Below the pieces are notes generated by a model. That model ran no database searches. It was not told where the DNA came from and saw nothing but the letters and a program-made list of their open reading frames with translations. Shown piece after piece: positions 3,340-55,377 of a DNA stretch of 64,000 bases. The DNA comes from Desulfarculus sp. (lineage in GTDB: Bacteria > Desulfobacterota > Desulfarculia > Desulfarculales > Desulfarculaceae). The stretch spans positions 124,001-188,000 of the forward strand of contig QZKP01000020.1 in NCBI GenBank assembly GCA_003605055.1. Direction: 5' to 3'. How positions within the stretch are numbered: the stretch's first letter is position 1; every line of letters begins with the position of its first letter. Both the position numbers and the translations under genes were made by a program.

Positions 3340-4716
3340 CTAAACCGGGCGGCCGGGCCGACGCAGGCGGCGGTGCAGGAAATAAAAGACCAGGCCGGCC
3401 AGGATGGTCAGGCCGGCAGGCAGGCCGCGCAGGGGCTCCTCCCAGAGGGAGAAGCCCGCGATGCCCAGGTTCACGGCCACGAAGGCCAGGGGCGTGAAGG
3501 GATAGCCCGGCACCCGGAAGGGCGGGGCCTGCGGCTGCCGGCGGCGCAGGAGCAGCAGCCCGGCCACGGTCAGGGCCGCGAACAACGACAGGGTGAAGCC
3601 GATGTAGAACAACAGGGCCTGGAAGGAGGCGGTCAGCACCAGCACCGCGGCGATGAGCGACTGCAGCAGTACCGCGTTGATGGGCACCCGGGAGTGAGGC
3701 GGCACCCGGGCCAGGGCCCCGAAGAACACCCCGTCGCGGGCCATGGCGAAGTAGACCCGGGAGCCGGCCAGTATCATGGCCCCGATGTTGGACAGCAGGC
3801 AGAAGCTCACCGCCAGGCTGAACAGGCCGCCGGCCCGGGGTCCGAACAGGACCTTGGCCGCCAGGGCGCCGATCTCCTTGACCCCCAGCATGCCCGCCGG
3901 GCCCAGGGCGGCCAGGTAGGCCAGGTTGATCAACAGGTACAGGAGCACCACCAGCCCGGTGCCCAACAACAGGGCCAGGGGCAGGTTGCGCTGCGGCCGC
4001 TCTATCTCCTCGCCCAGGTAGGCGGCGGCGTTGAAGCCGCTGTAGGCGAAGAAAATGAAGATCAGGGACAGGGCCAGGCTGCCGGCCAGGTGGCCCGCGG
4101 GCGGGGAAGCCGCCTGGGCCTGCCAAACCCCCGCGGCCGGCCACAAAGCCAGGCCCGCCACCACCAGCACCACCAGCAGCAGTAGCTTGAGCGCGGTGAG
4201 CAGGTTCTGCACGCCCAGGCCCACGGCCAGGCGCCGGGTGTGCACCAGGGTCAGCGCCGCGATGAAGCCCAGGGCCAGCAGGCTCTCGGGCGAGATGGTC
4301 ACCAGCCCGCCCCGCCACCAGACCACCCCGGCCCCGCCGGGCCAGGCCTGCAGCAGATAGGCGGCCGCGGCCATGGCCGAGGCGGCGATGGGCGCCGAGA
4401 AGCCCACCACCAGCGAGATCCAGCCCGAGAGGAAGGCCCACAGCGGCCCGAAGCTCTCATTGAGGAAGGCGTAGTCGCCGCCGGCCCGGGGCAGGCGGGC
4501 CCCCAGCTCGGCGTAGGACAGGGCCCCGGCCAGGGCGATGACCCCGCCCAGCAGCCAGGCCCCCAGCATCAGCATCGGGTCGGCCAGCATCTGCATGATG
4601 TAGCCGCTGGTGGTGAAGATGCCGGTGCCCACCATGTTGGCCACGATCAAAAAACCAGCCGAAAGCAACCCTACCCGGCGGCTGAGGCCGCCGCTATTGG
4701 CTCCGCCACTGTCCAT
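3340..4716 (-). CDS. APC-superfamily amino acid/polyamine permease
   Basis: An integral inner-membrane protein of 458 residues with about twelve hydrophobic segments. The first segment holds the G-x-G-I-F motif (V-G-T-G-I-F) typical of amino acid-polyamine-organocation transporters, which couple amino acid uptake or exchange to ion gradients. The ORF can be extended upstream to 4875, but the extension crosses the divergent promoter region and is not conserved-looking; the ATG at 4716 has GGAG seven bases ahead, so I take that start. The substrate cannot be read from the sequence. It is transcribed away from the heme/tetrapyrrole methylase gene, and the shared intergenic palindrome suggests common control. 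Confidence 0.85.
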   Translation of the reverse strand: MDSGGANSGGLSRRVGLLSAGFLIVANMVGTGIFTTSGYIMQMLADPMLMLGAWLLGGVIALAGALSYAELGARLPRAGGDYAFLNESFGPLWAFLSGWISLVVGFSAPIAASAMAAAAYLLQAWPGGAGVVWWRGGLVTISPESLLALGFIAALTLVHTRRLAVGLGVQNLLTALKLLLLVVLVVAGLALWPAAGVWQAQAASPPAGHLAGSLALSLIFIFFAYSGFNAAAYLGEEIERPQRNLPLALLLGTGLVVLLYLLINLAYLAALGPAGMLGVKEIGALAAKVLFGPRAGGLFSLAVSFCLLSNIGAMILAGSRVYFAMARDGVFFGALARVPPHSRVPINAVLLQSLIAAVLVLTASFQALLFYIGFTLSLFAALTVAGLLLLRRRQPQAPPFRVPGYPFTPLAFVAVNLGIAGFSLWEEPLRGLPAGLTILAGLVFYFLHRRLRRPGRPV

Positions 4717-4767
4717 CTGGTTCTCCAGGCCCCGGTGATGGGTCTTTTTTGCTTGACAGCCGGGGCA

Positions 4768-4810
4768 TACTATGTCTTTTTTGGCATATATGTCAATCGT
4801 GACATATGCT
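4768..4810. promoter_or_regulatory. Divergent promoter pair with an operator-like palindrome
   Basis: A perfect dyad, ATATGTCA-ATCG-TGACATAT, spans 4788-4807 in a locally AT-rich stretch. On the minus strand its left arm supplies a TTGACA -35 (4796-4791) with TAGTAT 18 bases on (4772-4767) for the permease. On the plus strand, TTGGCA (4781-4786) and TATGCT (4805-4810) are 18 bases apart, placing the dyad in the spacer. TGTCA-N4-TGACA has the size and symmetry of a CRP/FNR-superfamily site, but the regulator is not in the window. Confidence 0.55.
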
Positions 4811-4893
4811 CTGCCGCATGCACTGACAACCCCTTTCCCGCAGGCCGGCCCTGCCCCTTTGCCCGGCCCCAGCAATCTACCCGAGGAAGCGTA

Positions 4894-6639
4894 ATGATGC
4901 GCAAGTTAGCCCTTTTGTTGGCTGGGCTGGCGCTCCTGGCCGCCGTCCCCGCTGCCGCCCAGGACAAACCCGTGCTGCTGACCGTCTCCGGGCTGGTCAA
5001 GCAGCCCCTGCGCCTGGACGCCGAGCAACTGGCCCGCCTGGCGCCGGCCACGGTGAAGCTCAATGATATCAACTCCGAGGGCGATTTCGGCGGCGTTTTT
5101 TGGCTGCGCGGCGTGCCGCTCAGGAGCCTGCTGGAGCTGGCCGTGGTGGACAAGGAGGCCGGCGGCTTTAACAAGCTGACCGACCTGGCCATCTTGGTGC
5201 ACAGCCGGGACGGCCGCCAGGTGGCCCTATCCTGGGGCGAGGTGTTCCACCGCAACCCGGCCGAGACCATCATCGCGCTCAGCTCTTCGCCGGTGATGCC
5301 CCACAAGAGCTGCCAGGCCTGCCACCAGCCGGATGTGTACCAGCCCTGGCTGAGCCAGCTCCAGCGCACGGTAGGCATCCCCAAGCTGGCGGTGGCCGGC
5401 GACTTCTACAGCGACCGCAGCCTGGAGGGGGTTGACCGCATCGAGGTGGTCTGGCCAATGCCGGCCCAGTGGGGCCCCAAGCAAGACAAGCTGTTTTCGC
5501 CCTCACTGGTGGTGCAGCTTCCCGGCGGCCGGCAGGAGTATAAGAGCCTGCCCGCCCTGCCCCAGCAACAGGTGCAGGCCCTGCAGGTGGGCGAGGGCAA
5601 GGGCTTCCACGGCCACTACCGGCTGCGGGGCGTGGCCCTGCGCGACCTCCTGGCCCATCAGAAGGTCAAGGCCGACCTCAACTCCGTGTTCGTGGTCAGC
5701 GCGCCGGACGGCTACCAGTCCCTGGCCTCCTACGGGGAGCTTTTCCTGCGCCCCGCCGGGGCCCGGATCATCCTGGCCGACCGCAAGGACAACAAGCCTA
5801 TCGAGGCGGGCGGGCGCTTTGAACTGGTCTTTCCCGACGATCTTTGGGCCGACCGTTGGGTAAAGGCGGTCTCCCGTGTGCAGGCGGTGTCCTTGGCGCC
5901 CAAGGCCCGCCTTTTCGTCATCGGCATGGGCTGCGGGGACACCAGCCTGCTCACCCTGGACGCCCTGAGCCGCCTGGCCCAGGCCGAGGTGCTGGTAGCG
6001 CCCAAGGACATAGAAAAGCGCTTCGCCTTCTATCTGCGCGGCAAGCAGGTCCTGTTCGACCCCATGGCCGTGGGCAAGAAGCCCTTCACGGCCCCGGGCA
6101 CCCATAAGAAGGTGGCGGACCGCCAACGTCTGCGCGCGGAGCAGGCGGCCGCCGCCGAGCGGATCAAAAAGGTCCTGGCCAGCGGCAAGAGCGTGGCGGT
6201 GCTGGACTGGGGCGACCCCATGGTCTACGGCTCCTGGCGCTGGCTGGCGGACTTCGTGCCCCAGGAGCAGTTGACCATCGTGCCCGGCCTGAGCGCCTTC
6301 AACGCCGGCTCGGCGGCGCTCAAGCGCGACATAACCTGCCGGGGCGCGGTGGCCATCAGCGACCCCTTCACCCTGCTCAAGGACCCGGGCCTGGCCAAGC
6401 AACTGGCCGCCAAGAACGCCACCCTGGTGGTGTTCATGGGCCTGCCCAAGCTGAAGCAGGTGCTGGGGGTGGTCGAGAGGGCCTACCCGCCCCAGACCCC
6501 GGCCGCGGTGGTCCTCCGGGCCGGCTACGCCCAGGCCCAGCGGGTGGTGAGAGCGCCGCTGCAGGACCTGGCCGCGGAGTTGGCCAAGATCAAGGAAGGC
6601 TGGCTGGGGGTGATCTTCGTGGGCCCCTGCCTGCGTTAA
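4894..6639 (+). CDS. Exported sulfite-oxidase-like/cytochrome c/tetrapyrrole methylase fusion
   Basis: A 581-residue protein with unusual architecture. Residues 1-23 form a Sec signal peptide (basic MMRK, hydrophobic core, A-A-A cleavage region). Two repeats resembling small molybdopterin-binding oxidoreductase domains (V-S-G-L-V-x-x-P-L ... D-G-R / D-G-Y) follow at about 26-190 and 200-335. A c-type heme site, C-Q-A-C-H, is at 140-144. From about 339 to the end is a tetrapyrrole (corrin/porphyrin) methylase domain with G-M-G-C-G-D-T-S-L-L-T-L, close to the SAM-binding G-x-G-P-G-D motif. The heme site and signal peptide imply a periplasmic location, which is odd for a SAM-dependent enzyme. 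The ATG at 4894 (or 4897) has GAGGAAG ahead; the longer ORF has no leader-like start. It is followed by a TonB receptor. The methylase half may bind rather than methylate a tetrapyrrole. Confidence 0.78.
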   Translation: MMRKLALLLAGLALLAAVPAAAQDKPVLLTVSGLVKQPLRLDAEQLARLAPATVKLNDINSEGDFGGVFWLRGVPLRSLLELAVVDKEAGGFNKLTDLAILVHSRDGRQVALSWGEVFHRNPAETIIALSSSPVMPHKSCQACHQPDVYQPWLSQLQRTVGIPKLAVAGDFYSDRSLEGVDRIEVVWPMPAQWGPKQDKLFSPSLVVQLPGGRQEYKSLPALPQQQVQALQVGEGKGFHGHYRLRGVALRDLLAHQKVKADLNSVFVVSAPDGYQSLASYGELFLRPAGARIILADRKDNKPIEAGGRFELVFPDDLWADRWVKAVSRVQAVSLAPKARLFVIGMGCGDTSLLTLDALSRLAQAEVLVAPKDIEKRFAFYLRGKQVLFDPMAVGKKPFTAPGTHKKVADRQRLRAEQAAAAERIKKVLASGKSVAVLDWGDPMVYGSWRWLADFVPQEQLTIVPGLSAFNAGSAALKRDITCRGAVAISDPFTLLKDPGLAKQLAAKNATLVVFMGLPKLKQVLGVVERAYPPQTPAAVVLRAGYAQAQRVVRAPLQDLAAELAKIKEGWLGVIFVGPCLR

Positions 6640-45474: not shown

Positions 45475-47034
45475 ATGCAGCGTTTCCAGGTGCCCGACGT
45501 AATCATCACCGACGTCATCGCCAGCCACGGCAAGTGGCGGGCCAGCAAGCCGGCCGTGATCTGCGAGGACGACTCCATCACCTGGGGGGACTTCAACCGC
45601 CGGGTGAACCAGGCGGCCAACCGGCTCAGGGCCCTGGGCCTGGCCAAGGGCGACAAGGCCAGCTTGTTGTGCGGCAACTGCATCGAGATGCTCATCAGCC
45701 TGTTCGGCATCATCAAGGCCGGCGGCGTGGCCGTGCCCCTGAGCGTGATGGTGCAGGGCGAGTCCCTGGCGCGCATGGTGGTGGACTCGGACAGCAAGTT
45801 CCTCCTGGCCCAGGCGCCCATGGCCCCGGTGATGAACGCCTTTCGGGACCAGTTCACGGCCATCGCCCCCGAGGGCTACGTGGTCATCGGCGGCCAAGCC
45901 CCCGGCTGGACGCCCTTCTACGACTTCCTGCTCCCGGCCGCGGACACGGAGCCCGGGGTCAGGCTGGTCTATGAGGACCCCATCAACATCATGTACACCT
46001 CGGGCACCACCGGCGTGCCCAAGGGCATCCTGCACAACCACCACAACCGCACCCACTTCGCCCTGTCCTTCGGCATGGACTTCCGCTGCGACTCCAGCGC
46101 GGTGAGCATCGTCACCACCGCCCTGTACGCCAACGGCACCTGGCTGACCATGCTGCCCACCATCTTCGGCGGCGGCACCCTGGTGGTGATGACCAAGTTC
46201 GAGCCCCAGGAGTTCCTGGCCCTGGCCGCCCGGCACCGCTGCACGCACACCTTCATGGTGCCCACCCAGTTCACGGTGCTCTTGGAGCAGGAGAACTTCG
46301 GCCAGTACGACCTCAGCTCCATGCGGGTGTGGCTCTCGGCCGGCAGCCCCTTCCGGCCCCAGACCAAGCGCGAGGTGCTGGAGCGCTTCCCGGGCGAGCT
46401 GATGGAGCTGTGGGGGCTCACCGAGGGCGTGGCCACCACGCTGAAGCCCGAGCACATGCGCGCCAAGACCGAGTCCGTGGGCCTGCCCCTGGTGGGCTGG
46501 GACGTGGCCATCATAGACGAGCAGGGCCAGCGCCTGCCGCCCAACCAGTCCGGCGAGATCGTGGCCTTCAGCGTCTTCCTGATGCCCGAGTACTACAAGC
46601 TGCCCGACAAGACCCAGGAGGCCATCTGGCTGGACGAACAGGGCCGCACCTTCCTGCGCACCGGGGACATGGGCAAGCTGGACGAGGACGGCTTCCTCTA
46701 CGTCCTGGACCGCAAAAAGGATATGATCATCAGCGGGGGCATAAACATCTTCGCCAGCGACATCGAGGAGGTGGCCGCCAAGCACCCGGCGGTGGCCGAC
46801 GTGGCGGTGATCGGCCTGCCCCACCCCAAATGGGGCGAGACGCCGGTGGCCCTGGTCATCCCCAAGCCCGAGGCCGCGGCCGGGGCCGGGGAGATAAAGG
46901 ACTGGCTCAACCCCCGCCTGGCCAAGTACCAGCGGGTGAGCCAGGTCATCATCCGCCAGGACTTCCCGCGCAACGTGCTGGGCAAGGTGCTCAAGCGCGA
47001 GCTGCGCGACGAATACCAGAACCTGGCCGGTTAG
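45475..47034 (+). CDS. Acyl-CoA synthetase (AMP-forming, fatty-acid type)
   Basis: A 519-residue ANL ligase with I-M-Y-T-S-G-T-T-G-V-P-K-G, a W-G-L-T-E motif, R-T-G-D-M-G and the lysine in V-L-G-K-V-L-K. The ATG at 45475 with AGGAGGT ahead is chosen over the upstream frame, which overlaps the SDR gene. Its stop codon overlaps the stop of the convergent gene of the peptide locus by four bases (TTAG shared by both strands). Confidence 0.9.
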   Translation: MQRFQVPDVIITDVIASHGKWRASKPAVICEDDSITWGDFNRRVNQAANRLRALGLAKGDKASLLCGNCIEMLISLFGIIKAGGVAVPLSVMVQGESLARMVVDSDSKFLLAQAPMAPVMNAFRDQFTAIAPEGYVVIGGQAPGWTPFYDFLLPAADTEPGVRLVYEDPINIMYTSGTTGVPKGILHNHHNRTHFALSFGMDFRCDSSAVSIVTTALYANGTWLTMLPTIFGGGTLVVMTKFEPQEFLALAARHRCTHTFMVPTQFTVLLEQENFGQYDLSSMRVWLSAGSPFRPQTKREVLERFPGELMELWGLTEGVATTLKPEHMRAKTESVGLPLVGWDVAIIDEQGQRLPPNQSGEIVAFSVFLMPEYYKLPDKTQEAIWLDEQGRTFLRTGDMGKLDEDGFLYVLDRKKDMIISGGINIFASDIEEVAAKHPAVADVAVIGLPHPKWGETPVALVIPKPEAAAGAGEIKDWLNPRLAKYQRVSQVIIRQDFPRNVLGKVLKRELRDEYQNLAG

Positions 47035-47900
47035 GAGGGCTCCCCGCCGGCCCCCTGGTCCCGGCCGGCCAGGGCCCGCCACTGCTCCCGGGCCTGGGCG
47101 ATCTCGCCCAAGGCCTGGGACAGCAGGGCAAAGGCCTCCTGCCAGGCCTGGCAGGAGGCGGCCTGATAGCGCAGGAACCCCCGGCAGAAAAAGAAGAACT
47201 GGCAGGCCAGGCACTCGGGCTGCAGCCGGGGCAGGCCCTCCTGATACTCCCGCAGCCCGCGGCCGGGGCCGCTCTGTTGCCAGGCCCCGGGCGGGTCCCA
47301 AACGCTGCCCAGGCAGCGCCCGGCGGCCAGGTCATCGTAGCTGGCGGCCAGGTTGCCCTCCTGGTCGGCGAAGAGGTAGCGCTCGGGGTTGCAGCGGGCC
47401 AGTTCCCACAGGTCCAGGTTGCGGCTGTCCAGCAGGCAGGCCAGGATGGTGTGAAAGGGCTCCAGGGGCGCCTGCAGGGCGTGGTGGTGCAGATAGTGCT
47501 CCAGCAGCCCCCCGGCCTGCTCCTGGCTGATGGCGCTGCGGTTGTAGAGCAGGTCCACCGGCAGGCCCAGGGAGGCGGCCAGGCGGGCCTGCTCCAGCAG
47601 CCCCGGGCCGGAGGCCAGGCGCACCAGCACCCCGCCCCGGGCCAGGCGGTGGATGTTGTCCACCAGCTCCTCCACGCCTGAGGGATAGACCACCATGCCC
47701 CGCTCCCCCAGCTTCTGTTGCCGGGGGGCGCCGGACAGGGGGCCGAAGTAATCCACGCCCACCGCCTGCGGGCCCAGTTGCGCCAGGCCTTCCTCGATCA
47801 GGGCCCCGTCGCGGCCGTAGAGCACCACCTGCAAGGGCAGGCGCTCAGACCAGGCAACCAGCGGGGGACAGTGCATACTCAGCGGCGCGTCCGCGGCCAT
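47031..47900 (-). CDS. Cysteine-rich SPASM-like partner protein of the peptide locus
   Basis: A 289-residue protein I do not recognise. It has no CxxxCxxC radical SAM motif, but its C-terminal half carries Cys170, Cys196, Cys230, Cys233, Cys239 and Cys250; C230-x2-C233-x5-C239 matches the core of a SPASM auxiliary-cluster domain, with the rest degenerate. The N-terminal part has alternating beta/alpha character, so it may be a radical SAM protein that has lost its catalytic cluster and acts as partner or recognition subunit. It starts at ATG 47900 with GGAG seven bases before, and overlaps the second radical SAM gene by 56 bases, which implies tight coupling. It is the last gene of the locus. 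Confidence 0.65.
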   Translation of the reverse strand: MAADAPLSMHCPPLVAWSERLPLQVVLYGRDGALIEEGLAQLGPQAVGVDYFGPLSGAPRQQKLGERGMVVYPSGVEELVDNIHRLARGGVLVRLASGPGLLEQARLAASLGLPVDLLYNRSAISQEQAGGLLEHYLHHHALQAPLEPFHTILACLLDSRNLDLWELARCNPERYLFADQEGNLAASYDDLAAGRCLGSVWDPPGAWQQSGPGRGLREYQEGLPRLQPECLACQFFFFCRGFLRYQAASCQAWQEAFALLSQALGEIAQAREQWRALAGRDQGAGGEPS

Positions 47901-49038
47901 AGCATATCTCCGGCAGGGGTTCCGGCTCCTGGTCCGCCCGGGGGGCGCCGAACACCTGCTCGAAAAAGTATTTGCGGGCCTGGCACCAGGTGGTGGGGCG
48001 GAAGGGGTCGCCGTAGGTTATCTCCGGGTCCACGTAGCAGCCGCCGTGGCAATAGCGCCACCAGCCGCAGCCCCGGCAGGCGCTGAGCTGCAGGTAGATG
48101 ATGCGGTTGGCGCAGCGCAGCCGCACCGGCGAGTCCAGGATGGCGGCCAGGTCCTGCTGAAGGATGTTGCCCAGGGGCTGGGTGCCCCGGTCCACGCCGC
48201 GGCCGCAGGTGTAGATGGTGCCGTCGGCGTCCACCCCCAGGTGGGAGCTGGCGCAGTTGCCCGACTCCTCGCAGCACAGGTTGTTGGTGATGCCCTGGTG
48301 GTGGTACTCGTGCAGGGCGCTAAAGGGGTCCCAGCGCTGCTGGGTGCCGCTGTCCAGCCACAGGCCGTACATCTCCACCATGAAGCGGCCCCACTGCTCA
48401 GGGGTGAGGTGGTAGTGCTCGGAGCCCGGTCGGCCGGCTCGGCCCTCGGGGTACATGGGGTTCATGCGCACTGGGATGTCGACGAACTCACCGGCGAGGC
48501 ACGCGAACACCTCCGCCGCCCGGTCCAGGGAGTAGCGGTGCACGGTATAGACCAGGCCCAGGGGCTGGCCCTCCTGGCGGGCCAGGCCCACCGAGGCCCG
48601 GAAGCGCCGGTCGTAATCGCCCTGCTTCATCAGGCGGATGCCGCCGATGGGGTCGAAGCTGGTGCCGATGGGCCCCGGGGTTCCGTCGTCCAGGCGCAGC
48701 AGGCGCTTGAGCAGCCCGGCAATGTCCGGGTTGTAGGCCAGCAGGTTGGACTGCATGATGTTGTTCACCTCCAGCCCGGCCGGCCGCAGCAGCTCCTCCT
48801 GCAGCTCCAGAACCAGCTCGTAGAAGGAGGCGGGCATCAACAGGGGCTCCCCGCCGTGCCAGGTGAACATCACCCCGCGCAGGCCCCGCTCGGCCTGCGC
48901 GGCCAGGCGCTGGTGCAGCAGCCGCAGCGTCTGGCGGCTCATGGTCAGGCGAGGATAGTGCTCCTTCCAGGCCGAGCAGTACACGCAGGCCGCGTTGCAG
49001 GCGTTGGTGGGCTTCATGATCAGGGTGGCGTATTCCAT
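47845..49038 (-). CDS. Radical SAM/SPASM enzyme 2 of the peptide locus
   Basis: A 397-residue radical SAM protein with the catalytic Cys14-x3-Cys18-x2-Cys21 motif for the [4Fe-4S]/SAM site (A-C-N-A-A-C-V-Y-C) and a G-G-E-P-L stretch. The C-terminal half is a SPASM-type domain with two more clusters' worth of cysteines (C-C-E-E-S-G-N-C, I-Y-T-C-G-R-G, C-R-G-C-x5-C-H-G-G-C). This build resembles anaerobic sulfatase-maturating and peptide-crosslinking enzymes. It should modify the repeat peptide encoded upstream, for example by C-C bond formation. It follows enzyme 1 by three bases. Confidence 0.88.
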   Translation of the reverse strand: MEYATLIMKPTNACNAACVYCSAWKEHYPRLTMSRQTLRLLHQRLAAQAERGLRGVMFTWHGGEPLLMPASFYELVLELQEELLRPAGLEVNNIMQSNLLAYNPDIAGLLKRLLRLDDGTPGPIGTSFDPIGGIRLMKQGDYDRRFRASVGLARQEGQPLGLVYTVHRYSLDRAAEVFACLAGEFVDIPVRMNPMYPEGRAGRPGSEHYHLTPEQWGRFMVEMYGLWLDSGTQQRWDPFSALHEYHHQGITNNLCCEESGNCASSHLGVDADGTIYTCGRGVDRGTQPLGNILQQDLAAILDSPVRLRCANRIIYLQLSACRGCGWWRYCHGGCYVDPEITYGDPFRPTTWCQARKYFFEQVFGAPRADQEPEPLPEICYGRGRAAEYALSPAGCLV

Positions 49039-49041
49039 GGC

Positions 49042-50022
49042 CTAGCCTATCTGGGCGATGTCCCGCTCCAGGTAGTGGGAGATGCAGCCGCCCGAGCACT
49101 GCCGGCGCTCAAGGAACTTGCAGGAGGCGCATTTGTCGTACAGGCCCTTTTGCTCCAGCTCCGGCTGGAACATGCCGGTCAGGTGCTTGACCAGGGCCTC
49201 CAGGTCGCTGAACTGGGTGAGCAGCACGCTCTTGGTGGCCGACAGGGGGAAGCAGAACCAGACCTTGAGGTCCGGGCCGATGTCAATGGGCGGGCCGCAG
49301 GTGAAGTTTAGCTGCGCGTCGCAGCGGAACAGGGCCCCGATCTGGGCGTCGCTGAACAGGCACAGGGGGAAGCCGCAGTCCATGATGATCTTGATCCCCT
49401 GCTTATCGCACTCCGCGGCCAGGGCCAGCACCTGCTCCACCACCCGTGGGTAGTCGGCCACGGGCAGGCCCAGGTTCTGCCGGCCCACGATGGGCTGGGC
49501 CAGGCCCAGGCGCAAATGGGAAGTCAGCTCGTAGCGGGCGATGGTCTCCAGCAGAAAGGAGAAGTCGTGGTCGGCCCGGAATATGTTGAAGCTCAGGGAG
49601 GCGTTCTGCTTCAGGCTGGCCATGACCCGGCGCTGGCTGGCGTCCTCTTCGGCGCTGCGCAGGTGCCCTTCGTTGAGGTTGATCACCAGGCACAGCTCCT
49701 GGCTGCTGGGGGCGAAGTCGGCCAGCACCGCGCCTATCTCCGCCAGCACCGGCGGGGCCATGACGCCGTTGGTGAACACGTTGACCAGGAAGTGGCGGCC
49801 TAGCACGTAGCGCAGGAAGTGGGCGAAGCGGGGGTGCAGGGTGGGCTCGCCGCCCAGGATGTTCAGGTGCTTGGCGCCGGAGCCGTCCAGGAAGTCCAGC
49901 ACCGTCACCAGGTTGGCAAAGGAAAGCTGGTGCTGGGCCGTGGGATCCTGGCTGAGCTTCTCCTTGGCGAAGCAGTAAGGGCAGTTGCGATTGCAATAGT
50001 CTGTGAATAGCAGGTTGGGCAA
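49042..50022 (-). CDS. Radical SAM enzyme 1 of the peptide locus
   Basis: A 326-residue radical SAM protein with Cys10-x3-Cys14-x2-Cys17 (Y-C-N-R-N-C-P-Y-C) and G-G-E-P-T. The C-terminal part has C-G-P-P, F-C-F and a C-x2-C-x6-C-x3-C run (K-C-A-S-C, Q-C-S-G-G-C), so an auxiliary cluster is likely. It is the first enzyme gene after the precursor, 112 bases away. Two different radical SAM enzymes in one locus recall the paired maturases of the His-Xaa-Ser (Hxs) systems, although the precursor differs. Confidence 0.87.
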   Translation of the reverse strand: MPNLLFTDYCNRNCPYCFAKEKLSQDPTAQHQLSFANLVTVLDFLDGSGAKHLNILGGEPTLHPRFAHFLRYVLGRHFLVNVFTNGVMAPPVLAEIGAVLADFAPSSQELCLVINLNEGHLRSAEEDASQRRVMASLKQNASLSFNIFRADHDFSFLLETIARYELTSHLRLGLAQPIVGRQNLGLPVADYPRVVEQVLALAAECDKQGIKIIMDCGFPLCLFSDAQIGALFRCDAQLNFTCGPPIDIGPDLKVWFCFPLSATKSVLLTQFSDLEALVKHLTGMFQPELEQKGLYDKCASCKFLERRQCSGGCISHYLERDIAQIG

Positions 50023-50134: not shown

Positions 50135-50521
50135 TCAGGACCGGCTGTACTTGCCGTAGTTCACGTATTTGCCGTAGTTAACGTACTTGCCGTAGTTGAT
50201 GTACTTGGAATAAACGATGGAACTGGTGGAGTACTGCCGGCTGTAGGCGCCGTAGTTGGTGTAGGCGCCGTAGTTGGTGTAGGCCCCGTAGTTGGTGTAG
50301 CTGCCCGAGCTGCTGGAGGAGTCGCTGTAGACCGAATAGCCGCTGCTGTCGCTGCTGCCGCCGCCTCCTCCGCAGCTCCCCCCCTGCGGCCGCAGGGCGC
50401 CGTTTTCACCCACGCCTATGCCGCCCACACCCACGATCAGGCCGCAGACGGCCAGGGACCATTTTCTGAGATTCTTGAGGAAATCACGCCTGGTGCCGCC
50501 ATTAGTGCTGGACGCACCCAT
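50135..50521 (-). CDS. Putative RiPP precursor: Tat leader plus Tyr-x-x repeat core
   Basis: A 128-residue protein. Residues 8-38 look like a Tat signal: T-R-R-D-F-L-K followed by a hydrophobic stretch. A Gly/Ser-rich linker (about 45-70, with G-G-S-C-G-G-G-G-G) leads to two repeat blocks. In block 1 (75-93) Tyr-Thr-Asn and Tyr-Gly-Ala alternate three times; in block 2 (104-125) Tyr-Ser-Lys, then Tyr-Ile/Val-Asn and Tyr-Gly-Lys alternate three times. Tyr thus recurs every third residue, and the third position is mostly Asn, Lys or Ala. The ATG at 50521 has GGAGG five bases ahead; the ORF start at 50536 does not. It directly precedes two radical SAM genes on the same strand. Known triceptide RiPPs carry aromatic-x-Asn/Asp/Lys/Arg cyclophanes, which fits, but homology is not shown. 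Confidence 0.72.
   Translation of the reverse strand: MGASSTNGGTRRDFLKNLRKWSLAVCGLIVGVGGIGVGENGALRPQGGSCGGGGGSSDSSGYSVYSDSSSSSGSYTNYGAYTNYGAYTNYGAYSRQYSTSSIVYSKYINYGKYVNYGKYVNYGKYSRS
50147..50212 (-). repeat. 18-bp tandem repeats encoding the Y-x-N-Y-G-K block
   Basis: About three copies of an 18-base unit (plus-strand form CCGTAGTT-A/C-ACGTA-TTTG-type), each coding Tyr-Ile/Val-Asn-Tyr-Gly-Lys. The reading frame is kept and synonymous changes are few. Confidence 0.75.
50243..50299 (-). repeat. 18-bp tandem repeats encoding the Y-T-N-Y-G-A block
   Basis: Three copies of an 18-base unit (plus-strand GCGCCGTAGTTGGTGTAG), nearly identical, coding Tyr-Thr-Asn-Tyr-Gly-Ala. Confidence 0.8.
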
Positions 50522-50665
50522 GGTACCCTCCGTCATGGCAGATTTAGAGGTATTCGCGGACCCGGCTGGTTAAATTAGGCAGCTAGACCGCAGTCGCCTC
50601 ATCTTCAATACAAAGGCCAAGATGTATAAAACGAGCTGATGGTCTTTTCGCTGCTGTAGCTATCT

Positions 50666-50779: not shown

Positions 50780-52585
50780 TCAATAAACCAGATAGACCAC
50801 CGACACCAGCACCAGCAGCACCAGCACGCTCAATGGGGTGCCGGCCTTGATGAAGTCCAGGCTGCGGTAGCCGCCGGCGCCCATGTACAGGGCGTTGACC
50901 TGGTGCGTGGGCAGCATGAAGGAGTTGGAGGCGGCCAGCCCCACCACCAGGGCGGCCAGGCGCGGGTCCAGCCCCGCATCCTGGGCCAAGTTCACCACCA
51001 GGGGCACCAGCAGCACCGTGGCCCCCACATTGGACACCACCAGGGTGAAAGCCGAGGACAGGGCCGCGATCAGCAGCAGCAGCAGGAAGGCCGGCGGCTG
51101 ATCCAGCCAGGCCATGAGCTTGCCGGCCAGCCAGGCCGCGGCCCCGGTCTGCTGGGCGGCCAGGCCCAGGGGTATGAGCCCGGCCAACAGGAACACGGTG
51201 CGCCAGTCCACGCCCCGGTAGGCCTCGTCAAGGGACAGCACCCCGCTGAGCACCATGCCGAAGGCGCCGGCCATGAGGCAGACCGGCAGGCTGAGGCTGG
51301 TGAAGATCACCAGGGCGGTGGACAGGGCGAAGCAGGCCACGGCCGCGCCGGCCTTTTGCGGGTGCAGCACCTCATGATCCAGGGAGTGGGTGAAGATCAG
51401 GTCGCGCGTCTGGCGAAAACGCTGAAACTGCTCCCAGGCCCCGTGCATGAGGATGGCGTCGCCCACCTGGAGCCGCCGCTGGCCCAGGTGGGTGTAGTAC
51501 ACGTGCTCCTGGCGGTAAAGGGCCAGGGGCGCGACCAGATAATTGTGGCGGAAGCGTATCTCCTGCAGGCTGCGGCCGATGAACTTGGAGCGCGGCGGCA
51601 CCACCGCCTCGGCGACGCCGCTCAGGGCGCTGGAGAGCTCCCGGGCGAAGGTGTGCAGCTCGCGGCTCACGGTGAATCCGTAGGCCTGGGCCGCCTGGGC
51701 CACCTGCTCGGCAATGCCGTAGACCGCCACCACGCTGCCCGGGGACACGGTGGCGTCGCGGTCCGGCGGCAGCACCTTGACCCGCTCGTCCTGGGTCTTC
51801 AAAGCCACCACGTGCACCAGATAGGCGTCGCATATCTCGTCCACTTTGGGCGCCCGGCGGGCGTCGGCCGGCAGGGTCAGCTCGAACAGCACCCCCAGGC
51901 GGCTGTAATACTTCAGAGTGTCCACGGACCTGTGCGCGGAGCGGGCGTCATCGCTTTTGTCGCGGGGCAGCAGCCAGCCCCCCAGCAGGACAAAGTAGCA
52001 GATGCCCACCGCCACCAGGGCCAGCCCCACCGGCGTGACGCTGAACAGGTTGAAGGGGGCCAGGTTAAAAGGGGCCAAGAGGTCGTTGAGCATGATCAGG
52101 GGGCTGGAGCCCACCAGGGAGAGGGTGCCGCCCAGGATGGCCGCCGCGCCCATGGGCATCAAAAGCTGGGGCAGGGGCAGGCCGGTCTGGCGGCTGATGC
52201 GCCGCAGGGTGGGCAGGAACAGGACCGCGGCGCCGATAGCGTGCATCACGCTGGCCAGGAAGCCTATGGTCAAAGACAACAGGGCCACGATGCGCCAGCG
52301 GCTGTTGCCGGCCAGCAGCACCAGGGGCCGCATCACCTGGCCGATCACGCCGGTGTGGTCCAGCCCCCGGCCCAGGATTATCACCGCGATGATGGAGATC
52401 ACCGCCGTGGAGCTGAAGCCGGCGAAGGCGGTGCGGCCGTCCACCAGCCCCAGCATGGGCAGGGAAATCATGGTCAGGATGGCCACCATGTCCACCCGCA
52501 GCCACTCGGTGACGAACAGGAAGATCACCGCGGCTATCACCGCGAAGACCAGGAGCATATCGGTGGTCAATGCTTGGGGGGGCAC
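50780..52585 (-). CDS. SLC13/DASS-type anion transporter with TrkA-C domains
   Basis: An integral membrane protein of about 600 residues with two hydrophobic halves flanking a cytosolic region (about 215-380) that has two TrkA-C/RCK-C-like units. S-S-T-A-V-I-S-I and S-N-V-G-A-T are the paired substrate-loop motifs of the divalent anion:Na+ symporter family (sulfate, dicarboxylates). The ORF start (TTG 52612) lies inside the T-tract of the preceding terminator, so it is rejected; I take the GTG at 52585, with an AGGTG-like SD, although an ATG at 52558 is possible. Sulfate uptake would suit a sulfate reducer but is not proved. Confidence 0.85.
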   Translation of the reverse strand: MPPQALTTDMLLVFAVIAAVIFLFVTEWLRVDMVAILTMISLPMLGLVDGRTAFAGFSSTAVISIIAVIILGRGLDHTGVIGQVMRPLVLLAGNSRWRIVALLSLTIGFLASVMHAIGAAVLFLPTLRRISRQTGLPLPQLLMPMGAAAILGGTLSLVGSSPLIMLNDLLAPFNLAPFNLFSVTPVGLALVAVGICYFVLLGGWLLPRDKSDDARSAHRSVDTLKYYSRLGVLFELTLPADARRAPKVDEICDAYLVHVVALKTQDERVKVLPPDRDATVSPGSVVAVYGIAEQVAQAAQAYGFTVSRELHTFARELSSALSGVAEAVVPPRSKFIGRSLQEIRFRHNYLVAPLALYRQEHVYYTHLGQRRLQVGDAILMHGAWEQFQRFRQTRDLIFTHSLDHEVLHPQKAGAAVACFALSTALVIFTSLSLPVCLMAGAFGMVLSGVLSLDEAYRGVDWRTVFLLAGLIPLGLAAQQTGAAAWLAGKLMAWLDQPPAFLLLLLIAALSSAFTLVVSNVGATVLLVPLVVNLAQDAGLDPRLAALVVGLAASNSFMLPTHQVNALYMGAGGYRSLDFIKAGTPLSVLVLLVLVSVVYLVY

Positions 52586-52603
52586 GGCAAGCACCTGCTG
52601 GCG

Positions 52604-52631
52604 GAAAAACAAAGACCGGCCCTTGGGCCGG
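52604..52631 (-). terminator. Terminator after the LarA-like gene
   Basis: On the minus strand a CCGGCC/GGCCGG stem (loop CAAG) is followed by TCTTTGTTTTT. It closes the UxaC-LarA operon before the transporter gene. Confidence 0.8.
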
Positions 52632-52696: not shown

Positions 52697-53950
52697 CTAG
52701 CCGGCCAGGCGGTAGAGCACCTCGCCGGCCCGGTCCACGAACAGCACCCCCTGGTCCTCGCGGCCCTGAAAGTCGCCCAGGCGCAGCGCGGCCGGGTCCA
52801 GGTAGCCCAGGTTGATGCGCTGGCACTCCTGGGGCGAGATGCCCGTGGCCAGCACCACCTCTATGCGCGGCCTCTCCTGGCCGCGGCTGAAGCTGCCCAG
52901 GCCCTTGACGTGGGTGGAGTGGGCCAGCACCCCGCGGGGGATGTCGGCGAAGCGGGCCATCTCGGCCAGGAAGTAGTCGCGCACGTGGTAGCCGATGCGC
53001 TGGATGGGCTCGCCCCAGGTGCGCGAGACCCGCTTGATGTGCGGGCCGTAGATGATCAGGGTGCCGTTGTCGGCCACCACCTGCTCCAGCTTGTACATCA
53101 CCTTGCCCGCGGTCCACAGCTCGTCGTACATCTCCGGCGCCCGGCCCAGCACGACCTTATAGGGCCGGGGCTTGGTGACGACGTGCACCCGGGCCGAGAG
53201 GTCCGCGGCCGCGGACCAGGCCGGCTGCAGGGGCCCCGCGTACAGGCCGCAGAGCTGGCCCTGGGGGCTGACCACCGGGCAGCAGCCGTGCACGGGCACG
53301 GGCACCATCTCCAAGGCCCGGTTGAGCATGCGCCGCACCGGCGTGTCCTTGCGCCCGATTATCGCCGCGCAGGTGATCACCGCGCCCAGCCAGTGGGAGA
53401 AGTGCAGGAACTCGCCGGTGGAGACGCCGGGGAAGAGATACTTGGCCCCGCCGGAGAAGCCCACCACCTCGTGGGGGAACACCGGGCCCAGGATCATGAT
53501 CTGGTCGTAGTTGAACACGGCCCGGTTGATGTCCACCGGCACCCGTTCGCGCAGGCGGCCCTCGGACAGGGCGAAGACCTCCTCCTCTTCCAGCCAGCCC
53601 AGGCGGCGGGAGGTGTCGGCCAGGTCCCAGCGGTGGTTGAGCAGCTCCACCCCGGCCCAGGGGCCGCGCCGGGCCCCGGCGTCCAGGCCGTAGAGGGCCT
53701 GTATCTTCTCCTGGGGCAGGGGCGGGTGGGTGCCCAGGGCCACCATGAAGTCCAGTTTGGCCGCCTGGGGGCCCACCACCTCGCGCAGGGCCTGCACCAG
53801 CAGGGGCAGGGGGCAGGTGCGGGTGCCGTCGGGCGTGAGCACCAGCACCCGCCGGCCGGCGTAGAGCTCCCTGGGGGTGCCCTGGGCCATGATCTGCCTG
53901 ACCTGGGCGGCGCTCAGGGCCGCGCCCGGGCTGCCTTGACCGGCGATCAT
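52697..53950 (-). CDS. larA: LarA-family nickel-pincer racemase/epimerase
   Basis: A 417-residue member of the LarA (lactate racemase) family. It has D-G-T-R, a G-T-H motif, and the His/Lys/His set that holds the nickel-pincer nucleotide cofactor in LarA: His (in F-P-H-E-V-V), Lys ten residues later (G-G-A-K) and His sixteen after that (H-F-S-H-W), the same spacing as H174/K184/H200 in the Lactiplantibacillus enzyme. Other LarA homologues racemise malate or phenyllactate or epimerise D-gluconate at C2. Next to UxaC, a sugar-acid epimerase is likely. The cofactor synthesis genes larB, larC and larE are not in the window. ATG 53950 with TAGGAG ahead is preferred to the GTG at 53965. Confidence 0.9.
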   Translation of the reverse strand: MIAGQGSPGAALSAAQVRQIMAQGTPRELYAGRRVLVLTPDGTRTCPLPLLVQALREVVGPQAAKLDFMVALGTHPPLPQEKIQALYGLDAGARRGPWAGVELLNHRWDLADTSRRLGWLEEEEVFALSEGRLRERVPVDINRAVFNYDQIMILGPVFPHEVVGFSGGAKYLFPGVSTGEFLHFSHWLGAVITCAAIIGRKDTPVRRMLNRALEMVPVPVHGCCPVVSPQGQLCGLYAGPLQPAWSAAADLSARVHVVTKPRPYKVVLGRAPEMYDELWTAGKVMYKLEQVVADNGTLIIYGPHIKRVSRTWGEPIQRIGYHVRDYFLAEMARFADIPRGVLAHSTHVKGLGSFSRGQERPRIEVVLATGISPQECQRINLGYLDPAALRLGDFQGREDQGVLFVDRAGEVLYRLAG

Positions 53951-53961
53951 CTCGGCTCCTA

Positions 53962-55377
53962 TCACAAGCGGTAGGCCCGCTTGGCCAGGTTGTAGGCCAG
54001 ATCCACGGCCAGCTCGGCCGCCTCGTCCTCGGCCAGGCGATGGTCGCAGACCAGCTCGGACAGGTAGGCGCAGTCCAGGCGGCGGGACAGGTCGTGGCGG
54101 GCCGGGATGGAGGCGAAGGCCCGCGTGTCGTCGTTGAAGCCCACCGTGTTATAGAAGCCGGCCGTCTCGATCATAGAGCGCCTATGGCGCAGCATGCCCT
54201 GAGGGCTGTCAAAGAACCACCAGGCCGGCCCCAGGCGCAGGATGGGGTAGTGACCGGCCAGGGGGGCCAGCTCCCGGCTGTAGGCGCTCTCGTCCAGGGT
54301 GAAGAGGATCAGGGTCAGCCGAGGCTCGTTGCCCAGGCGGTCCAGGAGCGGCTTAAGGTCTTGCACGTAGTTGGTGGGCGTGGGGATGTCGGCGCCCATG
54401 TCCGGCCCGAAGCGCTGGTACAAGAGCAGGTTGTGGTTGCGCCAGGAGCCGGGGTGCAGTTGCATCACCAGCCCGTCCTCCAGGCTCATCTTGGCCATCT
54501 CCATGAGCATCTGGCCCCGGAAGGCCTCGGCCTCCTCTGGGTGCAGGCCGCCGGCCAGAGCCCCATCCAGCAGGCGCTGGCAGTCCGCCGCGGCCAGGTC
54601 GCAGGTCCGGGCGCTGGGGTGGCCGTGGTCCGTGGCCGTGGCCCCCATCCGCACGAAAAACTGCCGGCGCTCGGCCAGGGCCTTTAGATACCCCGGCCAG
54701 CGGCCGGTGTCCTGGCCGGTGAGCCGGCCCAGGCGGGCCAGGTTTTCTGGGAACCCCGGCGCCTCGGGGTCCACCACCGGGTCCGGCCGGAAGGTGGGCA
54801 GCACCCGGCCCGGCCAGTCGCCGGCCGCGATGCGGCGGTGGGCCTCCAGGTCCGACAGGGGCGGGTCGGTGGTGGCGAGCACCTCGATGTTGAAGCGCCG
54901 GAACAGCTCCCGCACCCGGAACTCGGGCCGGGCCAGGCAGTCGCTGATCTGGTCGTAGATGGCCTCGGCCGTGTCCGGGGCCAGGCGCTGGCGCACGCCG
55001 AAGAGGTGGTAGAGCGCGTAGTCCAGCCACAGGCGCGAGGGCGTGCCCCGGAACAGGTGGTAGTGCTCGGCGAACAGCCGCCAGATGCGCCGGGGGTCCT
55101 CTTCCGCCGGGCCGTGGTCGCGGCGGGGCACGCCCAGGCGCTCCAGGGCCACCCCCTGGCTGTAGAGCATGCGCAGCAGGTAGTGGTCCGGGATGATCAG
55201 CAGCCGGCTGGGGTCGGCGAAGGCGATGTTGTCCGCGTACCAGGCCGGGTCGCTGTGGCCGTGCGGGCTGATGATGGGCAGGTCCTTGACTTGGGCGTAG
55301 AGCGCCCGGGCCACGGCCCGTCGGCCGGGCTCGCTGGGCAGCAGACGGTCCTCGTGCATCTCCAGGGGCTGAGCCAT
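53962..55377 (-). CDS. uxaC: Glucuronate isomerase (uronate isomerase)
   Basis: A 471-residue amidohydrolase-like isomerase that turns D-glucuronate into D-fructuronate (and galacturonate into tagaturonate). It shows the N-terminal metal motif I-S-P-H-G-H, R-G-T-P-S-R-L-W, a T-D-P-P segment, M-Q-L-H-P-G, and G-F-N-D-D-T-R. The length matches UxaC. The ATG has GAGGG ahead. It is divergent from the RpiR regulator and overlaps the LarA-like gene. Confidence 0.95.
   Translation of the reverse strand: MAQPLEMHEDRLLPSEPGRRAVARALYAQVKDLPIISPHGHSDPAWYADNIAFADPSRLLIIPDHYLLRMLYSQGVALERLGVPRRDHGPAEEDPRRIWRLFAEHYHLFRGTPSRLWLDYALYHLFGVRQRLAPDTAEAIYDQISDCLARPEFRVRELFRRFNIEVLATTDPPLSDLEAHRRIAAGDWPGRVLPTFRPDPVVDPEAPGFPENLARLGRLTGQDTGRWPGYLKALAERRQFFVRMGATATDHGHPSARTCDLAAADCQRLLDGALAGGLHPEEAEAFRGQMLMEMAKMSLEDGLVMQLHPGSWRNHNLLLYQRFGPDMGADIPTPTNYVQDLKPLLDRLGNEPRLTLILFTLDESAYSRELAPLAGHYPILRLGPAWWFFDSPQGMLRHRRSMIETAGFYNTVGFNDDTRAFASIPARHDLSRRLDCAYLSELVCDHRLAEDEAAELAVDLAYNLAKRAYRL

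Follow-up and report, generated by a model that had tools for sequence, protein, structure and literature searches.

Among the products of radical SAM enzymes of the SPASM family are PQQ and mycofactocin, which derive from Tyr-containing peptides, and Lys at the second position after an aromatic residue (+2) is known as a ring partner in cyclophanes. In triceptides (XncB, OscB/GrrM, MscB, YxdB and YhhB) a SPASM radical SAM maturase acts on an aromatic-x-Asn/Asp/Ser/Arg motif. The accessible part of a study of three-residue cyclophanes describes rings from Trp or Phe to Asn, from Phe to Ser and from Tyr to Asp or Arg, and a Tyr to Ala ring at i,i+2 was reported there for a mutated substrate (PMC11002830). 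For RiPP clusters of Bacteroidales, the accessible part of another study (PMC10352776) mentions pseudo-radical SAM partners (IPR026418). The open literature searched contained neither a Tat-exported radical SAM RiPP nor a system with Tyr-repeat cores.

The locus described here lies in a window of 64,000 nucleotides from Desulfarculus sp. (contig QZKP01000020.1, positions 124,001 to 188,000). On the minus strand of the window, a precursor gene is followed by rs1, rs2 and sp, with a gap of 3 nt between rs1 and rs2 and an overlap of 56 nt between rs2 and sp (Table 1). The precursor ORF very probably encodes a Tat-type RiPP precursor that is matured by radical SAM enzymes. The precursors, rs1 and sp have no curated model in the NCBIfam and Pfam copies scanned. 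The locus probably represents a family of Tat-exported RiPPs with multiple cyclophanes, whose cross-link chemistry we infer and whose novelty is judged against NCBIfam, Pfam and the open literature searched. A citrate-type transporter gene precedes the cassette and a plus-strand acyl-CoA ligase gene faces it. Elsewhere in the window, a gene for a protein related to nickel-dependent LarA-type racemases/epimerases (top NCBIfam match NPN_18_hexonate, 154 bits, below the cut-off of 500) adjoins a glucuronate isomerase gene.

Table 1. Positions of the features of the locus in the window.
Feature	Position	Strand	Description
Precursor gene	50135–50536	minus	133-aa ORF; 128 aa from the likely start at 50521
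Leader motif R-R-x-F-L-x-x-L-x-K-W-S	50457–50491	minus	Tat-type twin arginine
Core block 1	50237–50299	minus	(YTN YGA)x3 YSR; 18-bp tandem array at 50242–50300, 97% matching
Core block 2	50141–50212	minus	YSK YIN YGK YVN YGK YVN YGK YSR; 18-bp tandem array at 50147–50207, 88% matching
rs1	49042–50022	minus	Radical SAM protein, 326 aa; Pfam Radical_SAM, 47.2 bits
rs2	47845–49038	minus	Radical SAM/SPASM protein, 397 aa; Pfam Radical_SAM and SPASM over cut-off
sp	47031–47900	minus	Putative pseudo-radical SAM partner (AF2 model), 289 aa; overlaps rs2
Citrate-type transporter gene	50780–52612		Precedes the cassette
LarA-type gene	52697–53965		Related to racemases/epimerases
Glucuronate isomerase gene	53962–55377		Adjoins the LarA-type gene

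The likely start of the precursor is the second ATG, which, as read from the sequence, has GGAGGG (50526–50531) 4 nt before it; the repeat is unaffected by this choice. The leader contains RRDFLKNLRKWS and a hydrophobic stretch and is followed by a Gly/Ser linker and the Tyr repeat. In the numbering of the 133-aa ORF, Tyr is found at positions 67, 70, 80, 83, 86, 89, 92, 95, 98, 102, 109, 112, 115, 118, 121, 124, 127 and 130. The core consists of the units of block 1, Q, YST, SSIV, the units of block 2 and a final S, with Tyr102 between the two blocks and Tyr 67 and 70 upstream of them. The first-pass annotation had described Tyr at every third residue in two blocks, with Asn in every second unit and Ala (block 1) or Lys (block 2) between, and the unit order agrees with this. 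The exact three-residue register was also correct, and the number of Tyr in it is 15, seven (80–98) and eight (109–130), instead of the fourteen counted before; left unmentioned were the closing YSR unit of each block and the YSK unit at the start of block 2. Tyr pairs at a distance of three residues numbered 14 against 3.4 expected (p = 0.0005, the smallest value possible with 2,000 shuffles of the same core). The DNA copies of block 2 differ at third codon positions (GTT/GTG, AAA/AAG). The residue at +2 was N, D, S, K or R in 12 of 16 units, the others being the three YGA units and YST. Since a Tyr to Ala ring was reported in a mutant substrate in the accessible part of PMC11002830, the YGA units are plausible targets as well. 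The first-pass annotation had offered, as one of two readings of the change from Ala to Lys, that the mature product may have a neutral and a cationic segment; Y-G-K/R units are not peculiar to this genome and were also present at loci L034, L045, L054 and L061 of the survey described below.

In rs1, the CX3CX2C motif (C10, C14, C17) and seven further, SPASM-like cysteines were invariant in 38 rows, and Foldseek comparison showed that its AF2 model (pLDDT 87) resembles SuiB, anSME and CteB. The cysteines C14, C18, C21, C256, C262, C278, C321, C324, C330 and C334 of rs2 were invariant in 37 rows. The top NCBIfam match of rs2 was DynA, at 140.1 bits and under the cut-off of 450, followed here by the sulfatase maturase model (108 bits, cut-off 349); the scores against the 3-CyFE maturases AmcB (49 of 425), FxsB (46 of 370), YhhB (44 of 445), GrrM (39 of 310) and XyeB (26 of 450) were also below their cut-offs, and rs1 reached none of these cut-offs either. 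The closest solved relatives of rs2 were anSME and ChlB, with anSME the closest solved sequence. PHROGs returned general radical SAM families only. The third protein, sp, matched no Pfam or NCBIfam model. The CX3CX2C motif was absent from the sp ORFs checked, and the only invariant cysteines in 38 rows formed a CX2CX5C motif (C230, C233, C239). The AF2 model of sp (pLDDT 81) aligned with anSME (4k36) at Z 15.8 over 257 residues and with precursor-bound ChlB (9gmc) at Z 15.6 over 257-258 residues, and every row above Z 10 was a radical SAM protein. On the basis of this model, sp was read as a pseudo-radical SAM partner, which would have the radical SAM/SPASM fold without the cysteines of the SAM cluster.

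A direct homologue search with the precursor among 98 relatives (E 0.01) matched the window itself only and homologues were therefore reached through the enzymes. A similarity scan with rs1 yielded 59 loci, 37 of which, from ten phyla, contained rs1, sp and rs2 together: by NCBI record names Bacteroidota (17), Myxococcota (5), Nitrospirota, Elusimicrobiota and Thermodesulfobacteriota (3 each), Ignavibacteriota (2) and Armatimonadota, Spirochaetota, Gemmatimonadota and Nitrospinota (1 each). The proposed RiPP family is widespread among mostly uncultured bacteria. Within the phylum of the window rs1 was rare (14 of 395 sampled genomes at E 1e-25), and the genome of the window was the only carrier of its genus and family among them. 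A precursor whose leader is basic and Tat-like and whose core is rich in Tyr is encoded in all 37 genomes with the full cassette, and in 34 of them it adjoins the cassette; among these, L038 is cut by the contig end and L061 and L072 have weak repeats. In the remaining three, L060, L078 and L081, the precursors are located elsewhere in the genome, one each for L060 and L078. The L081 cassette is the closest to that of the window (45-46% identity), and its genome encodes two precursors with the KWS leader on another contig. The candidates L134, L135 and L136 were ordinary Tat-type proteins and were not counted.

The other 22 of the 59 loci lacked the full set. Locus L073 is cut off after sp, the sp of L074 is truncated although rs1 and rs2 are kept, no sp was scored at L062 beside its rs1 and two copies of rs2, and rs1-like genes without sp were found at L031, L033, L047, L051, L068-L070, L075 and L080. 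At L076, L077 and L079, rs1 is followed by an ORF of 517-529 aa matching sp, perhaps a different arrangement; at these three loci rs2 was absent and no precursor was seen, and the ORF of L076 had no Pfam match. In an archaeal MAG (L083), an ORF (4469-4966) with 28 His in a three-residue register of the His-x-Ser type lies ~3 kb from a weak rs1 relative.

The sequence rule of the cores was analyzed in 44 precursors, a set that omits L038 (cut by the contig end), L019 (Trp-type), L111, L124-L126, L129-L131 and L138. These precursors contain 1,193 Tyr with a +2 residue, of which 282 have Tyr at +2 and were excluded. In 803 of the other 911 cases (88%) the +2 residue was N, D, S, K or R (Ser 317, Asn 302, Asp 112, Arg 54, Lys 18), against a mean of 65% and a maximum of 69% after shuffling. 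The share of Asn/Asp was 45% at +2 and 21% at +1. Tyr pairs three residues apart were enriched (p<0.01) in 26 of the 44 precursors, and the other 18 showed no significant three-residue register at that level; period 4 was seen in L032, L044, L053 and L058, mixed spacings of 3-5 in L041 and L057, and period 7 in L092. In L057, Ser occupied +2 in 50 of 52 non-Tyr cases and both +1 and -1 were variable, and in L073, a counter-case, just 3 of 10 Tyr had N, D, S, K or R at +2. The spacing thus varies and the +2 residue is fixed, which indicates on the level of sequence that the conserved unit is Tyr-x-[N/S/D/R/K] and not the three-residue register. A strict register as the family rule was consequently discarded on account of the relatives with periods 4, 5 and 7; the -1 residue was likewise discarded as a partner, for in L032, L044, L053, L057 and L058 it varies and +2 is nearly always Ser. 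The first-pass annotation had named homologues without the three-residue register as what would refute it, and several homologues indeed depart from that register; it had also asked whether the Y-x-N positions are fixed, and Tyr-x-Asn/Ser/Asp is kept. Its placing of a RiPP precursor beside SPASM radical SAM enzymes, with the aromatic-x-Asn/Asp/Lys/Arg motif, is supported by the motif conserved at +2. The sp gene and the Tat-type leader had escaped it. The repeat cores offer dozens of potential ring-forming sites per peptide.

A row of Tyr cyclophanes is, by motif and enzyme type, the probable product. An alternative that we consider unlikely, with appreciable weight nonetheless, is that each Tyr undergoes some other modification by the enzymes, such as oxidation or hydroxylation, epimerisation, decarboxylation or Tyr-Tyr coupling, with the +2 residue serving for recognition and not as a ring partner; the product could then be redox-active or metal-binding, similar to the cofactors that SPASM enzymes derive from Tyr. 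The precedent of PQQ and mycofactocin, together with the Tyr chemistry of MftC in the accessible part of PMC9062424, is consistent with such a modification, as are the 282 of 1,193 Tyr that have Tyr at +2 and the presence of two enzymes and a partner, which exceeds the single maturase of triceptides in the accessible part of PMC11002830. Against it, the +2 residues N, D, S, R and K are documented cyclophane partners and stay fixed despite the varied spacing.

The type of core was found to follow the enzymes. For 33 systems, scored as Ser-type or Asn/Asp-type by majority (some cores were mixed, with the two types at 4 against 5 in L042, 17 against 19 in L050 and 2 against 2 in L061), the rs2 tree required 4 changes between the types, compared with a mean of 10.5 after shuffling and none of 1,000 shuffles as low. 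The rs1 tree required 5 changes (1 of 1,000 shuffles) and the sp tree 7 (14 of 1,000). As core type fits the rs2 tree best, these sequence data suggest that rs2 reads the +2 residue. The first-pass annotation had seen in the change from Ala to Lys a possible sign of two enzyme specificities, so that one of rs1 and rs2 would act on Y-x-N and the other on Y-G-A/K. Two enzymes and two alternating unit types do coincide in the window, and Y-x-N/D is mixed with Y-G-K/R in L034, L045 and L054 as well. The same two enzymes, however, accompany cores with a single unit type (L037, with Y-x-N/D in 26 of 26 counted units; L055; L058, with 25 Y-x-S and no Y-x-N/D/K/R), which makes such a split very improbable, and the change from Ala to Lys was rejected as an explanation for the enzyme pair.

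The role of rs1 was approached by a search with the sp profile, without selection for rs1, which gave 15 genomes (matches in 8/395, 4/296, 5/42 and 1/3 genomes, overlaps included). The 11 genomes with rs1 all had Tyr cores, and the four without rs1 beside sp all had Trp or Cys cores (Fisher p 0.0007 for the 15 genomes), namely Trp-x-Asn in G067 and G432 and Cys-Arg-Arg and Cys-Arg repeats in G782 and G362. The leaders of these rs1-less systems carry the RRxFLxxLxKWS motif common to the window and to L131, the precursors of the nearest relative. Since the rs2 tree places all four rs1-less systems together on a single side, descent is an alternative explanation of the link between rs1 and Tyr. 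In this tree, whose root was drawn at the midpoint, where long branches meet, the window and L081 branch deeply, between the Trp/Cys systems and the main group with Tyr. Elsewhere in G432 and G782 the rs1 profile matched weakly (46 bits, covering 90 and 136 of its 333 positions), which was taken to reflect other radical SAM proteins. With its pseudo-radical SAM partner and the link of rs1 to Tyr, the system allows direct tests of how paired radical SAM enzymes divide their work.

Relatives without rs1 were also encountered in the loci. Trp-x-Asn precursor relatives lie beside sp and rs2 at L019 (8483-8929; Gly-rich) and L111 (9224-9718), and L111 encodes a second rs2-like protein, of 689 aa, whose C-terminal half contains a further radical SAM domain. 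At L124 (5661-5960) and L125 (3435-3710 and 4007-4333), the same kind of Tat-type leader precedes ten Cys-Arg-Arg units or a Cys-Arg run beside sp and rs2; these may be Cys-based sister systems.

Twin arginines were present in 42 of 45 listed precursors. The RRxFLxxLxKWS motif of the window had a single match in its genome, in the precursor, gave none when 19 further genomes of the family were searched, and recurred in the precursors of L019, L111, L124, L125 (two) and L131 (two). Besides its Tat role it may possibly also serve in enzyme recognition. The precursor in the window combines a twin-Arg signal and a hydrophobic stretch with TatC in the genome (E 1.6e-77), and its leader scored 15.0 against TIGR01409, below the curated cut-off of 16.7; 8 of 47 precursors matched this model at E up to 0.05. 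Weak matches of precursors to Iro, FliH and FDH-region models look like leader or low-complexity matches. TatC was found in 28 of 34 cassette genomes, including that of the window, and not in the other six, of which four have RR leaders (L045, L052, L054 and L065, draft genomes) and two, L041 and L043, have neither TatC nor twin arginine; L034 has TatC and no RR. Genes for TatA and TatC directly follow the precursors in L037, L049 and L055 and suggest an export route for RiPPs without an example in the literature searched.

Several precursors have features of surface proteins. Some leaders resemble lipoprotein signals, and a lipobox-like Cys was present in 9 of 45 listed precursors, the match of the window, inside the Gly-rich linker, being excluded. 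In L074 (6603-7586, of the Chlorobi type) and L138 (4251-5144), both with a truncated sp, the Y-x-S core runs on into an Lcl_C adhesin-type domain, as in collagen-like adhesin. Tyr/Ser/Asn-rich repeats occur in surface proteins, and together with Lcl_C and the lipobox-like Cys this would fit an ordinary Tyr-rich exported surface protein, with the radical SAM genes acting on something else. We regard this as highly improbable, since a precursor of this kind is encoded in every one of the 37 genomes with a full cassette, the +2 residue changes in step with the rs2 tree, and pattern and leader accompany the enzymes across ten phyla.

A family-9 glycosyltransferase (GT9) was fused to rs2 or located close by in 21 of the 37 loci. 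C-terminal fusions to rs2 were seen at L018 (6695-8791), L042, L059, L064-L066, L072 and L112. Pfam confirmed GT9 in two fusion proteins, of which one comes from outside the 37 loci, and two separate GT9 genes by L081 that the GT9 profile had missed; the profile found none in the window. When the neighbours of the 37 loci were clustered, GT9 was the sole frequent family (13 loci); the representative of the next family (5 loci) overlaps rs1 on the other strand, and no recurrent dedicated ABC exporter or peptidase was present. This absence, the Lcl_C domains and the lipoprotein-like leaders favour a role at the surface over that of a secreted antibiotic.

In the cyclophane reading, the RRxFLxxLxKWS leader would dock the precursor to rs1, rs2 and sp, and rs2, with sp as substrate-binding partner, would work along the repeat and join the ring of each Tyr (i) to the beta-carbon of residue i+2, which would be Asn, Lys, Arg and probably Ala. 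A row of three-residue cyclophanes would result, and rs1 would be an additional enzyme required for Tyr as the aromatic residue. Once stiffened, the peptide would exit by Tat, which takes folded cargo, and would probably stay on the cell surface, where it would form a rigid repeat. Glycosylation by the family-9 transferase, which is absent from the window, may also occur in many relatives. More tentatively, and with less confidence than in the cyclophanes themselves, these systems may form a RiPP class of at least ten phyla, in which a radical SAM/pseudo-radical SAM pair builds Tyr-cyclophane rods that are exported by Tat, anchored at the surface, often glycosylated and not antibiotics. The use of Tat would then be explained by a core that its cross-links have made rigid before it leaves the cytoplasm. 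Equally tentative is the combined proposal that cores of Tyr, Trp and Cys all draw on a single Tat-leader scaffold, to which rs1 is added to admit Tyr. If they exist, such rods could act as adhesive stalks or Tyr-based redox conduits and, if the chemistry holds, the family would supply rigid, cross-linked peptide rods that can be programmed genetically.

Among known systems, the Bacteroidales clusters likewise combine a radical SAM-like protein, a radical SAM maturase and a precursor according to the accessible part of PMC10352776; those clusters carry LanC, whereas sp has no NCBIfam match. The DynA/DarE maturases and the anaerobic sulfatase maturase are the closest named relatives of rs2 by profile, but rs2 remains below their cut-offs and the precursors are unrelated. 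The His-Xaa-Ser system (HxsA, HxsB/HxsC) likewise has a pair of radical SAM proteins and an aromatic residue that recurs every three positions, and the L030 precursor had a weak HxsA4 match (22 bits, cut-off 55). Here, in contrast, the repeat is built on Tyr instead of His and the enzymes score far below the Hxs cut-offs (HxsB 38.6 of 370; HxsC, a weak NCBIfam match of rs1, 24.6 of 267.9); the literature searched contained no Hxs chemistry. The triceptides share the aromatic-x-Asn/Asp/Ser/Arg motif and the SPASM radical SAM maturase; the Trp-x-Asn, Gly-rich precursor of L019 is a further likeness, and one of 47 precursors weakly matched the triceptide precursor GrrA/OscA1 (TIGR04260, E 0.011). 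The present systems differ from them in an rs2 far below every curated maturase cut-off, a second radical SAM protein and a pseudo-radical SAM partner, a Tat-type leader, up to dozens of units and a frequent GT9 gene. By motif and enzyme type, the system would work like a triceptide, a class in which membership is decided by the bond itself.
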